Shown here: piece after piece, positions 39,660-43,232 of the stretch
Layout: each line of letters begins with the position of its first letter
How positions within the stretch are numbered: position 1 is the first letter of the stretch
Assembly: GCA_020429185.1 (NCBI GenBank)
Contig: JAGQLO010000004.1
Span: forward strand, 1 to 49,615
DNA length: 49,615 bases
DNA from: Candidatus Doudnabacteria bacterium
GTDB lineage: Bacteria; Patescibacteriota; JABMPQ01; JAGQLO01
Reading direction: 5' to 3'
Program-made: the position numbers and the translations under genes
Notes under the pieces: generated by a model
The model's database searches: none
The model's input: the letters and a program-made list of their open reading frames with translations, nothing else
Told to the model about the DNA's origin: nothing

Positions 39660-40208
39660 TCAACAGTTGCGTTGCGTACGACGTCGTCGCGATCCAACCA
39701 CGGAGCAACGAAACATGTGAGAACGAAAACGGGCCGAATGCCGCCACGGTTCACGACGCCGATTCCGCAGATCGGCAAGCGAAGAGACAAGCTGCAGATG
39801 CGCCTGCTTCAGCAATGCCAAACTTCTGCGCTCACCAACTCGCGTCGACGCCGCAACTTCCACAACGTGAACGGGCTTTACAACAGGCTCGGGAAATGGA
39901 GACGTTGTACGCTCAAGGAGTCCCGTCAACCAGATAAACCCGGGTACAGTCGGGTACCCGTCGCGCTGCAGCAATGCTTGCCACGCGGCAATTTCACGGC
40001 GTACGTCGTGCAGATCACGTGCCCGAAAATCGAATTGCAGTGCACCATACTTCAGCAATCCATACGCCTTCTCGTATCGAGGCGGCGCCTCCGAAGAACT
40101 ATGCGCCGATTCCGGATCCCGCAACAGAAGAAACAGGCGGCACTCACGAAGTGCCGGAAACCCAATAACCCCGAACCGAATAGGGCCACCGCGCCACTTC
40201 GTGCTCAT
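39660..40208 (-). CDS. GC-rich orphan hypothetical protein (182 aa)
   Basis: Unrecognised. The ATG at 40208 (MSTKWRGGPIRFGVIGF) is preferred to an upstream in-frame start at 40241 because a G7 run, usable as Shine-Dalgarno, lies four bases before it. The N-terminal 130 residues look like a folded alpha/beta domain (GVIGFPALRECRLFLLLRD, ALQFDFRARDLHDVRREIAAWQALL, VPGFIWLTGLLER). The last 50 are very basic (LRNRRREPWRHSARFRSHMFR, GSRRRRTQRNC), which could bind nucleic acid. Its composition is richer in G+C than its surroundings. Own promoter, leader hairpin and terminator. It is tandem with the 274-aa orphan and divergent from valS. Confidence 0.65.
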   Translation of the reverse strand: MSTKWRGGPIRFGVIGFPALRECRLFLLLRDPESAHSSSEAPPRYEKAYGLLKYGALQFDFRARDLHDVRREIAAWQALLQRDGYPTVPGFIWLTGLLERTTSPFPEPVVKPVHVVEVAASTRVGERRSLALLKQAHLQLVSSLADLRNRRREPWRHSARFRSHMFRCSVVGSRRRRTQRNC

Positions 40209-40230
40209 AAATCCCCCCCAAAACGCGAAA

Positions 40231-40256
40231 CGGAAGCTCACCTCCGTGAGCTTCCG
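40231..40256 (-). promoter_or_regulatory. Strong hairpin in the leader of the 182-aa orphan gene
   Basis: A perfect 11-bp stem, CGGAAGCTCAC / GTGAGCTTCCG, with loop GGAG, is followed on the minus strand by TTTCGCGTTTT and then the ribosome site and ATG. It could be an attenuator, or a structural element; as a terminator its T-run is interrupted. Confidence 0.6.
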
Positions 40257-40299
40257 TCTATGTTGGTGTTAGGTTGCCCTCTAGGCATTCAATACATGC

Positions 40300-40308
40300 A
40301 GCGTAACA
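40300..40308 (-). promoter_or_regulatory. Extended -10 promoter of the 182-aa orphan gene
   Basis: TGTTACGCT on the minus strand (TGn plus TACGCT). No good -35 box. It would give a leader of about 85 nt containing the 11-bp hairpin. It is back to back with the valS promoter. Confidence 0.45.
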
Positions 40309-40316
40309 CAACGAGA

Positions 40317-40344
40317 TTGACGACCTGTCCACACATGATACGCT
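40317..40344 (+). promoter_or_regulatory. Predicted promoter of the valS T-box transcript
   Basis: TTGACG (40317-40322), 16-nt spacer, TACGCT (40339-40344). Start of transcription about 40348-40351, just at the base of the T-box stem I. Confidence 0.6.
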
Positions 40345-40347
40345 CAC

Positions 40348-40542
40348 GCCACAACTGAGTAGGTCGTACGCGGGAACTGTGTCGCCCCGCTGCCGGAACA
40401 CTGGCCGACCGGAACGGAAAAGTTCTCACGAACAGAACGTTCCCGCTTCAGCCGCGCATACGCTGTGAACGAAGTGGTCTTGGCCCGCGCAAGACAACGG
40501 AGGTGGTACCACTCCACCACGAGTCCTCCGAAGAGGGCTTTT
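40348..40542 (+). promoter_or_regulatory. T-box riboswitch controlling valS (valine tRNA sensor)
   Basis: This leader fills the 351-nt gap before valS together with the divergent promoter. Seen: AGTA (40358-40361), the S-turn strand of stem I; helix CGTACGCGG / CCGCGcaTACG above it; and on the returning strand GAA followed by GTG and a purine (40471-40477), the arrangement of a specifier loop, with GUG as a valine codon. The T-box core GGAGGTGGTACCAC is at 40499-40512. Its bulge UGGU (40504-40507) would pair with the ACCA end of uncharged tRNA-Val, whose discriminator is A. CCTC at 40525-40528 pairs either with GAGG of the T-box (antiterminator) or with GAGG of the following terminator. Uncharged tRNA-Val should therefore switch valS on. 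Confidence 0.88.
40523..40542 (+). terminator. T-box regulated terminator
   Basis: GTCCTC / GAGGGC stem with a CGAA tetraloop, then TTTT. It is followed by 17 nt to the valS ATG. Mutually exclusive with the antiterminator formed by the T-box core. Confidence 0.8.
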
Positions 40543-40559
40543 ATTGTGTTCATATTCCT

Positions 40560-43202
40560 ATGTCGACATCACTTCCAACCCGCTATGACTTCGCCGCTTC
40601 TGAAGAAGCGCTTTATGCCATGTGGGAAGACGGCAAATACTTCCAGCCAGAAACAACAACAGATACAGACGGCGTTTCGTTCATGAGTAAACCACGAGAA
40701 GAACGGCCCGATCCCTTTTGTGTGATGATGCCACCACCAAACGCAACAGGAATTCTTCATCTCGGGCACGCAGCCCGCATGACCACGGAAGATATCATGA
40801 CGCGCTACCACCGCATGACTGGCAAACCAACACTCTTCCTGCCCGGTACGGACCATGCGGGAATCGCAACGCAATCAAAGGTGGAACACATCTTATTAGA
40901 AGAAGAGGGAAAAACACGACACGATCTCGGACGTGAAGCATTTTTGGAACGCGTTGAGGCATTTGTACAAGATTCACAAGACACCATTCGCAATCAGGTG
41001 CGCCGCACCGGAGCTTCGTGCGACTGGTCACGCGAGGCCTACACCTTCTCCCCTAAACTCAATAAAGGCGTGAACGAAATCTTCGCACGCATGTTTAAAG
41101 ATGGACTGATTTACCGCGGTGCTCGTAGCATCAACTGGGACCCAAAACTCAAAACAAATGTTTCTGACGACGAAGTAGAGTACAAAGAGGAGAAGTCTCC
41201 GTTCTACACCTTCCAATATGGCCCATTCCAAATTGGAACGGTACGTCCCGAAACGAAATTCGGCGACAAATACGTGGTTGTTCATCCAGAAGACGAGCGC
41301 TACGCCCAATACACGCACGGCGACACCTTCGAGTGTGAATGGATCAACGGACCCATCACCGCCACCATCATTAAAGATGAAGCTGCCGATCCAGAAGCCG
41401 GAACGGGCGCAATGACCATTACCCCCTGGCACTCTCAGGTCGACTTTGAAATTGCACAACGCCACAACCTCGACATCGAACAAGTGATCGATCTGGAAGG
41501 AAAGCTTCTTCCAATCGCACAAGAATTCGCAGGCATGCCAATTGAAGAAGCACGCCAAAGAATCGTTGAGAAGCTTGAACAAAAAGGGCTGATCGTCAGC
41601 ATCGACGAAGACTACACGCACAACGTCGCGACCAACTATCGCGGCGGCGGCGTGATCGAGCCACAGGTTATGAAACAGTGGTTTGTAGACGTCAACAAAC
41701 CAGCCGTTCAAGTGAATTGGAAGCCAGGTGAAATGCTTTCCATAAAAGAAGCGTTACAGTCAGCCGTTCGTGACGAGCAAATCCAAATCCTTCCGGAACG
41801 TTTTAACAAAACGTACTTCTCTTGGATCGATAATCTTCGTGACTGGAACATCTCACGTCAGCTTTGGTGGGGTCACCGAATCCCCATCTGGTATCCAGAA
41901 GGCGCCGTCGGTGACGAAACACAGGCCGTTCTTGAAGAAGACAAACAAGACGGAGTGACATACGTCCAAGACGAAGACACACTCGACACATGGTTCTCTT
42001 CCATGCTTTGGACGTTTAGTGCACACGGATGGCCAGAAGAAACGGACGACTTGGAATACTTCCACCCGACAAGCGTTCTCGAAACGGCCTACGACATTCT
42101 CTTTTTCTGGGTTGCACGCATGATCTTGGCCTCGACCTACGCACGCCACGAAGTGCCGTTCAAGACTGTCTATCTGTCTGGACTCATTCGAGATCGCTCG
42201 GGCGCAAAAATGAGTAAGTCAAAAGGAAACGGAATTGACCCACTTGAGATGATCGACAAATACGGCGCAGATGCAGTACGTCTTTCACTCATCGTGGGCA
42301 CAACCCCCGGAAACGACTCACGACTCTACGAAGAAAAGATTAAGGGCTACCGCAACTTCTCAACCAAACTCTGGAACATTGCCCGATTCATTCTGAATAA
42401 GTTCCCAGATGTAACGGCGGCCCCAACTCCTGTCACCCTGGCAGACAATTGGATCCTGTCACGACTCGCAGCTGTTCGCGACGACGTTACAACGGGACTG
42501 GACACCTACAACCTTGGGGTGGGAGGCGAAACACTCTACGCCTTCGCCTGGCATGAAGTGGCTGACTGGTACATCGAGCTTCTGAAAGACGAATCACAAA
42601 ACGACAGTGGTCCTGTTGCACGATTTGTCCTCGAAGAACTTCTAAAACTCCTACATCCGTACACACCATTCATCACGGAAGAAATTTGGAAGCATCTCGA
42701 AAAGCCAGAAGCATTGATTGTGACAGCATGGCCCACCCCCCTCGAACAAGACAAAGAAGTAGAAGCAGCGTTCAACGTTGTCACAGACATGATCGAAGCA
42801 ACGCGCAGTATTCGTGGAACGCTTCGGATCCCTGCCGAAAAGGAGCTCACAGCTTCAACAACGGCTGATCTATCAGAAGAACAACGTCGTGCCATCGCTC
42901 AACTTGCCCGCATCCAGTTCGAAGAAACGCCTCGGGAAGGAGCAAGTGTTATTGCGCACGGGCGTTTGAATGCGTTAACACTCTCCATCGAAGGTGCAGT
43001 CGATCTTGAAGCGGAACGATCACGCCTCACAGAAGAACTGCAGAACGAAGAATCGCACTCGGAACGAATTCAAAAGAAGCTCAGCAACACGAAGTTTGTT
43101 GAGGGGGCTCCAACAGAAATTGTTCAAAAGGAGCGCGAAAAGCTCGAACGAGCCGAACACAAGATTGGCTTACTAAAGGGACAATTGGAGCAACTAGGGT
43201 AG
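40560..43202 (+). CDS. valS: Valyl-tRNA synthetase
   Basis: Class I aminoacyl-tRNA synthetase, 880 aa. The ATG at 40560 (MSTSLPTRYDFAASEEALY) is chosen; the frame opens at a GTG (40503) that lies inside the T-box. HIGH motif as HLGH (67-70) in PPPNATGILHLGHA; editing domain TGAMTITPWHSQVDFE; LRDWNISRQLWWGHRIPIWY; KMSKSKGNGIDPLEM (about 549). The anticodon-binding domain follows. The C-terminal tRNA-binding coiled coil (LEAERSRLTEELQNEES to ERAEHKIGLLKGQLEQL) distinguishes ValRS from IleRS and LeuRS. Expression is governed by the upstream T-box. It is followed by a probable terminator; no gene is cotranscribed with it. Confidence 0.98.
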   Translation: MSTSLPTRYDFAASEEALYAMWEDGKYFQPETTTDTDGVSFMSKPREERPDPFCVMMPPPNATGILHLGHAARMTTEDIMTRYHRMTGKPTLFLPGTDHAGIATQSKVEHILLEEEGKTRHDLGREAFLERVEAFVQDSQDTIRNQVRRTGASCDWSREAYTFSPKLNKGVNEIFARMFKDGLIYRGARSINWDPKLKTNVSDDEVEYKEEKSPFYTFQYGPFQIGTVRPETKFGDKYVVVHPEDERYAQYTHGDTFECEWINGPITATIIKDEAADPEAGTGAMTITPWHSQVDFEIAQRHNLDIEQVIDLEGKLLPIAQEFAGMPIEEARQRIVEKLEQKGLIVSIDEDYTHNVATNYRGGGVIEPQVMKQWFVDVNKPAVQVNWKPGEMLSIKEALQSAVRDEQIQILPERFNKTYFSWIDNLRDWNISRQLWWGHRIPIWYPEGAVGDETQAVLEEDKQDGVTYVQDEDTLDTWFSSMLWTFSAHGWPEETDDLEYFHPTSVLETAYDILFFWVARMILASTYARHEVPFKTVYLSGLIRDRSGAKMSKSKGNGIDPLEMIDKYGADAVRLSLIVGTTPGNDSRLYEEKIKGYRNFSTKLWNIARFILNKFPDVTAAPTPVTLADNWILSRLAAVRDDVTTGLDTYNLGVGGETLYAFAWHEVADWYIELLKDESQNDSGPVARFVLEELLKLLHPYTPFITEEIWKHLEKPEALIVTAWPTPLEQDKEVEAAFNVVTDMIEATRSIRGTLRIPAEKELTASTTADLSEEQRRAIAQLARIQFEETPREGASVIAHGRLNALTLSIEGAVDLEAERSRLTEELQNEESHSERIQKKLSNTKFVEGAPTEIVQKEREKLERAEHKIGLLKGQLEQLG

Positions 43203-43232
43203 GCCCAGAGCTCCTACCCCCAGTCCTTTTTT
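43197..43232 (+). terminator. Probable terminator of valS
   Basis: GGGTAGG / CCTACCC (7 bp, 9-nt loop) overlaps the valS stop codon; T6 follows 7 nt later at 43227-43232. The gap between stem and T-run lowers confidence. Confidence 0.5.

Follow-up and report, generated by a model that had tools for sequence, protein, structure and literature searches.

We analyzed contig JAGQLO010000004.1 (49,615 nt; assembly GCA_020429185.1) of a Candidatus Doudnabacteria bacterium, a member of the Patescibacteriota; we refer to this whole stretch as the window. The leader of its valyl-tRNA synthetase gene (valS) is very probably a T-box that controls valS by transcription attenuation. An antiterminator, a terminator that overlaps it, a bulge that fits the 3' end of tRNA-Val, and valS downstream are all present (Table 1), and elsewhere in this genome is a second T-box, with a bulge that fits tRNA-Thr. 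A prediction made earlier from the DNA letters (the original prediction) had proposed a T-box before valS that is specific for valine and works by transcription termination, in a Patescibacteria-like genome. That much is supported by a covariance model match, by the terminator, and by the assignment of valS with TIGR00422 and NF004349. Most of its reading holds, and so it is partly supported, with the specifier moved to GUC at 40381-40383.

On sequence grounds, 40498-40543 is a complete T-box expression platform. The letters quoted in the original prediction are where it put them, and its T-box core turns out to belong to a complete antiterminator. Helix A1 pairs CGGAGG with CCUCCG (6/6 pairs), helix A2 pairs ACUC with GAGU, and a 7-nt bulge of the UGGNACC type sits between them. 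This was the best such element in the window when both strands were searched. Dinucleotide shuffles gave 0.05 antiterminators of equal quality per 49.6 kb (both strands), which by arithmetic corresponds to a chance of about 1e-4 in a 250-nt leader. The 3' strand of the antiterminator (40521-40530) doubles as the 5' arm of the terminator, so the predicted alternative pairing of the terminator's left arm is borne out. The hairpin at 40521-40540 was the sole terminator that a separate scan of 40150-40620 found. The folding energy is -10.2 kcal/mol for the terminator alone and -10.8 kcal/mol for the antiterminator with its bulge forced open. The core pattern AGGTGGNACCRC is uninformative alone: with one mismatch allowed, it had 35 matches genome-wide, versus 33 for a reversed control.

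Two covariance models were built without the valS leader. R2 describes the 36-nt antiterminator and was made from a gapless seed (A7) of 12 sequences, all from other Patescibacteria T-boxes. R1 has 127 positions and was made from a trimmed alignment of 12 leaders (A5). Full-leader MAFFT alignments (numbered A1, A2, and A4, like but distinct from the helices) were discarded because the antiterminator 3' arm and stems with differing loop lengths were misaligned. R2 matched the valS leader at 40495-40530 with 33.4 bits (E = 5.7e-7 in the window and 1e-5 genome-wide). It had no match in 23 control genomes of proteobacteria, Planctomycetota, and other non-Patescibacteria lineages, and 5/5 Clostridia-type genomes were positive. 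R1 gave 56 bits for the ileS leader of genome G100 and 26 bits for the valS leader of genome G115, but we had expected it to recognize Stems I and II of our valS leader as well, and this failed: the core alone matched, at 10.6 bits. Because R2 matches strongly with clean controls while R1 matches just the core, we consider the valS leader to be a T-box with a divergent sensing domain, and we do not claim K-turn or S-turn type motifs for it.

The acceptor contact also fits tRNA-Val, as had been predicted: the tRNA-Val-GAC gene of this genome (G000:C21:3768-3841) ends in GGGCCC-A-CCA, and the UGGU of the bulge could pair with its ACCA. The second R2 match in the genome (G000:C42:43274-43319; 27.3 bits, E = 5.5e-4) lies about 67 nt upstream of thrS. 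There, we see a promoter-like sequence (TTGCTG-17-TATACT), a Stem III with AAGCG before it and AA after it, and a long terminator that closes with UUUU. The bulge in the thrS leader is UGGA, which fits the 3' UCCA of tRNA-Thr, and both tRNA-Thr genes that were seen end in U-CCA. Because two bulges (UGGU and UGGA) fit two discriminator bases (A and U) in one genome, the acceptor contact is independently supported. The thrS leader (L301; G000:C42:43129-43364) also has a candidate specifier, the ACC within GGACACCACTTC (43210-43221). After this triplet come an A and a helix of GAAG with CUUC, so the thrS leader, in contrast to the valS leader, may have a long Stem I.

It is extremely improbable that the valS leader holds a constitutive terminator, or some other attenuator, with a T-box-like motif by chance and no tRNA sensing. 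Although the upstream domain goes unrecognized by the Rfam T-box model (RF00230) and by R1, and valS of a genome from the same order (G072) has no leader at all, this idea does not account for the full competition between antiterminator and terminator or for an R2 match of this strength with 0/23 control genomes positive. The second T-box before thrS, with its fitting discriminator, and the T-box before valS of G115 also argue against it.

From its position, and by comparison with other leaders, we take GUC at 40381-40383 as the probable specifier. It is complementary to the anticodon of tRNA-Val-GAC. The loop of Stem I (AACUGUGUCGC) and the corresponding loop of the G115 valS T-box (AAUGUGUCGG) have UGUGUCG in common, which by arithmetic has a chance of about 0.1% for loops of such sizes. 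On the other hand, the chance that a 5-bp hairpin carries some valine codon is appreciable by itself. The nearest alternative is GUG at 40379-40381 in the same apical loop, which is a valine codon as well.

The original prediction had instead placed the specifier in GAA-GUG-G (40471-40477), opposite AGTA. This would make the leader a class I T-box, whose long Stem I would hold GUG (40474-40476) within an internal loop. Both sets of letters are present, and AGUA/GAA-NNN-R internal loops do occur in some Patescibacteria T-boxes (the proS leaders L187 and L196), yet a class I element is very unlikely here, as no helix was found flanking AGTA or GAA-GUG-G. Rather, GAA-GUG-G adjoins Stem III on its 5' side, where it belongs to a purine motif; the GUG is paired at 97-99% in the ensemble, and Stem III begins with G40477. 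In five related Patescibacteria valS T-boxes, the site before Stem III is UGAAGUG (L195 and L224) or UGAAGCG (L215, L222, and L227). Because GCG replaces GUG in three of the five, the site does not track valine, so the conservation check that came with the original prediction speaks against its choice of codon. Also, the sequence of a distal double T-loop was not seen in the valS leader, and a class I long Stem I with this feature and an internal specifier loop was not found: the ensemble contains short hairpins only, inspection by eye gave the same result, and RF00230 did not match. The long-range pairing of GCGGGAAC with GUUCCCGC, tried as a long Stem I, has an ensemble probability of 0. We dropped a census of tRNAs as an argument against a GUG-reading tRNA: Gly and Ile tRNAs were likewise unseen among those scanned, so absence means little.

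Several results weigh against a T-box with GUC on a short Stem I. RF00230 had no match in the leader at its gathering score, at E ≤ 10 in a local search, or genome-wide. The Stem I loop has 11 nt, versus 5-6 nt in known class III T-boxes. R1 gave no confirmation of Stem II homology for the hairpin at 40411-40443, and with this model the K-turn, the S-turn, and the IIA/B pseudoknot were unrecognizable. Finally, the leader as a whole folds with no exceptional stability (z = -1.0). Because RF00230 misses the leader, one may ask whether the model or the element is at fault. RF00230 is a search model, not a biological feature, and most matches in Patescibacteria also score below its cut-off. The covariance check proposed with the original prediction thus came out negative with RF00230 and positive with the phylum-specific R2.

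The Stem I/II domain of the valS leader is divergent and is resolved only in part; a degenerate S-turn is possible in the Stem II-like hairpin. The short Stem I hairpin is also found in the minimum free energy and centroid folds. The RRRxG-Stem III-AA arrangement, which is conserved in known T-boxes (PMC7583486), is present as AAGUG, 40477-40495, and AA. A decayed T-box, with its platform kept but its tRNA-reading upstream part degenerating and regulation weak or lost, would fit an upstream domain that diverges from all models. It would also fit the gain and loss of whole leaders in this order: G072 and G115, from one family, share a similar TTGCCA...TAAGAT / TAAAAT stretch in the promoter region before valS, but this is followed by a T-box in G115 (L174) and leads directly to the ATG in G072 (L143), and this suggests that the whole leader comes and goes as one unit. 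We nevertheless consider decay improbable because the short Stem I, RRRxG-Stem III-AA, A1 (with all six pairs), A2, and the terminator are all intact.

If the valS leader is an attenuating T-box, then RNA polymerase would transcribe the leader first, and the short Stem I would expose GUC for pairing with the tRNA-Val-GAC anticodon. An uncharged tRNA-Val would pair its 3' ACCA with UGGU in the bulge and stabilize the antiterminator, so that valS would be transcribed. The 3' end of valine-charged tRNA could not dock; 40521-40530 would then join the terminator, and transcription would stop before valS. We infer the contact between GUC and the anticodon, the geometry of Stems I and II, and the tRNA-dependent switching. 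There is no sign of translational control because the leader ends in a terminator and no Shine-Dalgarno sequence was seen between the terminator and the ATG of valS. The original prediction held that the cell senses valine starvation. This idea fits the gene content: ilvD (PF00920) and ketol-acid reductoisomerase (PF01450) were not found in this genome, while 14/14 control genomes have both. Because these are missing, the cell probably imports valine, and therefore a tRNA-charging sensor on valS makes sense.

By our searches, T-boxes, often short-armed, are common across the Patescibacteria. We surveyed 380 Patescibacteria genomes, drawn evenly across the phylum. RF00230 had matches at E ≤ 0.001 in 127 of these, R1 in 146, and R2 in 151 (40%). 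Taken together, the three models find T-boxes in 193 genomes, and at least two of them agree on 147. These counts are rough, since fast filters miss weak matches, and the 23 negative genomes were scanned with R2 alone. Only 13/380 genomes exceed the Rfam cut-off, so with this cut-off, the majority of T-boxes in a very large group of bacteria stay hidden. Among the Patescibacteria valS loci that we collected at first, our own descriptor found no strong T-box except for L046.

For an analysis of architecture, we took 60 shorter RF00230 matches and named the downstream genes with NCBIfam, independently of the loops. Most of these leaders are 10-150 nt upstream of aminoacyl-tRNA synthetase genes (ileS, valS, aspS, tyrS, trpS, proS, thrS, or glyS). 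In the same order as this genome, RF00230 matches lie before valS in G115 (G115:C23:395-548; E = 7.9e-9; adjoining a valS fragment) and before ileS in G100, and there is a longer match in G086. In many leaders, the first element is a small hairpin; near the 3' end of its apical loop is a triplet, and one or two more bases complete the loop, as in CCAG-CU-AUC-A-CUGG (ileS), GCGAGG-AUUAAU-GUC-A-CCUCGC (valS), and GCGG-UC-GAC-A-CCGC (aspS). We defined the specifier as the triplet 1-2 nt ahead of the 3' arm of this hairpin. It encodes the amino acid of the downstream enzyme in 37/47 leaders, which is not a blind test because the rule took shape after some of those leaders were seen; when genes were permuted, the mean was 11.3 and the maximum in 20,000 permutations was 21. 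With ileS left out, the triplet matches in 20/28 leaders (permuted mean 5.6, maximum 14).

The covarying helices in alignment A5 are the basal Stem I, the specifier hairpin, a five-pair Stem II (paired in 12/12), and IIA. In these, 43 cells were changed on both sides, versus 13.3 in shuffles, and none of 500 shuffles was as high. If we include the valS leader, 49/61 leaders have an intrinsic terminator that overlaps the antiterminator; as a control, the downstream sequence was shuffled, and 14/305 trials gave a stem score as high as the observed one. The valS leader is among the 29 that pass the specifier rule and the terminator test together. Not all leaders conform: an internal loop of AGUA/GAA-CCC-G occurs in some proS leaders, and the specifier rule fails for some leaders of tyrS, glyS, and aspS.

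The current scheme has four classes of T-boxes, and those of class III have a short Stem I with an apical specifier and are mostly translational (PMC10482949). For transcriptional T-boxes, a long Stem I carrying an elbow-binding motif is generally held to be necessary (PMC7583486). Like transcriptional T-boxes that RF00230 describes (such as Bacillus subtilis tyrS), the valS leader has a UGGNACC bulge between A1 and A2, a competing terminator, RRRxG-Stem III-AA, and a synthetase gene downstream, but it lacks an RF00230 score, and neither a long Stem I nor a double T-loop nor conserved Stem II and IIA/B motifs are recognizable. As in the class III T-boxes of ileS in Nocardia farcinica and Mycobacterium tuberculosis (PMC10482949, PMC7583486), its Stem I is short, its probable specifier lies in the apical loop before a purine, and an elbow-binding motif was not seen. 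However, class III T-boxes hide the ribosome site, whereas the valS leader ends in an intrinsic terminator, and its S-turn and K-turn are indistinct, while they are clearer in most other Patescibacteria members. The G115 T-box shares with it the valS target, the UGUGUCG loop, the UGGUACC bulge, and an overlapping terminator, but G115 scores with both RF00230 and R1, and our valS leader scores with neither beyond the core.

Many Patescibacteria T-boxes thus appear to join a short Stem I of the class III type to transcriptional output. On balance, we favor a phylum-wide Patescibacteria class of terminating T-boxes in which a very short Stem I presents the codon in its apical loop and the elbow-binding arm is absent; the valS leader would be a divergent member that also lost a recognizable K-turn and S-turn. 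This phylum-wide set is the interesting part, as the valS element itself belongs to a known family, in which it is divergent. It raises the questions of how tRNA can be captured quickly enough by a transcriptional T-box that makes no elbow contact, and of how starvation is sensed in host-dependent bacteria without amino acid synthesis. A survey in 2008 found T-boxes to be abundant in Firmicutes only (PMC2494555), and TBDB applied its truncated-Stem-I model solely to Actinobacteria and to class I matches with a truncated Stem I (PMC7778990). In the open-access literature, we found no paper linking T-boxes with Patescibacteria or the candidate phyla radiation, which leaves priority unproven.

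Table 1. Features of the valS locus, with positions in the window.
Feature	Positions	Strand	Basis
Possible promoter: TTGACG (40317-40322), 16-nt spacer, TACGCT (40339-40344)	40317-40344	+	By eye; position inferred
valS leader with T-box	40351-40543	+	Upstream of valS
Short Stem I hairpin, GCGGG-AACUGUGUCGC-CCCGC	40370-40390	+	Pair probability 0.96-0.97, unconstrained ensemble
Probable specifier GUC (valine), then purine G40384	40381-40383	+	Apical-loop position as in other leaders; unpaired probability 0.86-0.94
Stem II-like hairpin, GGAACG-GAAAA-GUUC-UCAC-GAAC-AGAA-CGUUCC	40411-40443	+	Outer pair probability 0.98-0.99
F-box / RRRxG purine motif GAACGAAGUG, 5' of Stem III	40467-40476	+	Same motif in other valS T-boxes; PMC7583486
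Stem III, GUCUUG-GCCCGCG-CAAGAC (40477-40495), then AA (40496-40497)	40477-40497	+	Pair probability 0.85-0.98
Antiterminator: A1, CGGAGG (40498-40503) with CCTCCG (40525-40530); T-box bulge TGGTACC (40504-40510); A2, ACTC (40511-40514) with GAGT (40521-40524); loop (40515-40520)	40498-40530	+	Model R2, shuffle control
UGGU, predicted to pair with 3' ACCA of uncharged tRNA-Val	40504-40507	+	3' end of tRNA-Val-GAC
Intrinsic terminator, GAGUCCUC-CGAA-GAGGGCUU, then U-run	40521-40543	+	Terminator scan; 5' arm overlaps antiterminator 3' strand
valS, valyl-tRNA synthetase, 880 aa, regulated gene	40560-43202	+	NF004349 960.8 bits, TIGR00422 864.8 bits, Pfam domains

The promoter at 40317-40344 is plausible. 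TTGACG is indeed at 40317, where the original prediction had a promoter, but no sigma-70 site passed a promoter scan. The leader RNA is predicted to start at about 40351. The start codon of valS is the ATG at 40560, and both NF004349 and TIGR00422 exceed their cut-offs (NCBIfam). In the interval that separates the valS leader from the genes upstream of it, there is a perfect hairpin, ACGGAAGCUCAC-CUCC-GUGAGCUUCCGU (40230-40257), which is perhaps a terminator that lacks a clear U-run. The closest relatives of this ValS include proteins from SAR324 and deltaproteobacterial metagenome-assembled genomes (L013, L018, L019, L023-L025, and L027-L029; 48-49% identity), and this closeness suggests gene transfer of valS.

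We also noticed some unusual T-boxes and a tRNA-like gene. Among the T-boxes of non-discriminating aspS (L189 and L228 versus L194, L199, and L233), the apical triplet is either Asn (AAC) or Asp (GAC), as if an enzyme that charges both tRNAs could be tuned by either tRNA. L193 (G177:C3:25376-25700) is a tandem pair of T-boxes. T-box matches are also found before genes that do not encode synthetases (L202, L211, L177, and L179), namely a RelA/SpoT-like gene, shikimate dehydrogenase, an amino acid dehydrogenase, and VorB. In the Doudnabacteria genome itself, a tRNA-like gene (L262; G000:C40:49173-49247) lies between tRNA-Phe and tRNA-Arg; its anticodon loop is enlarged, and ARAGORN reports its anticodon as four bases (cgta).

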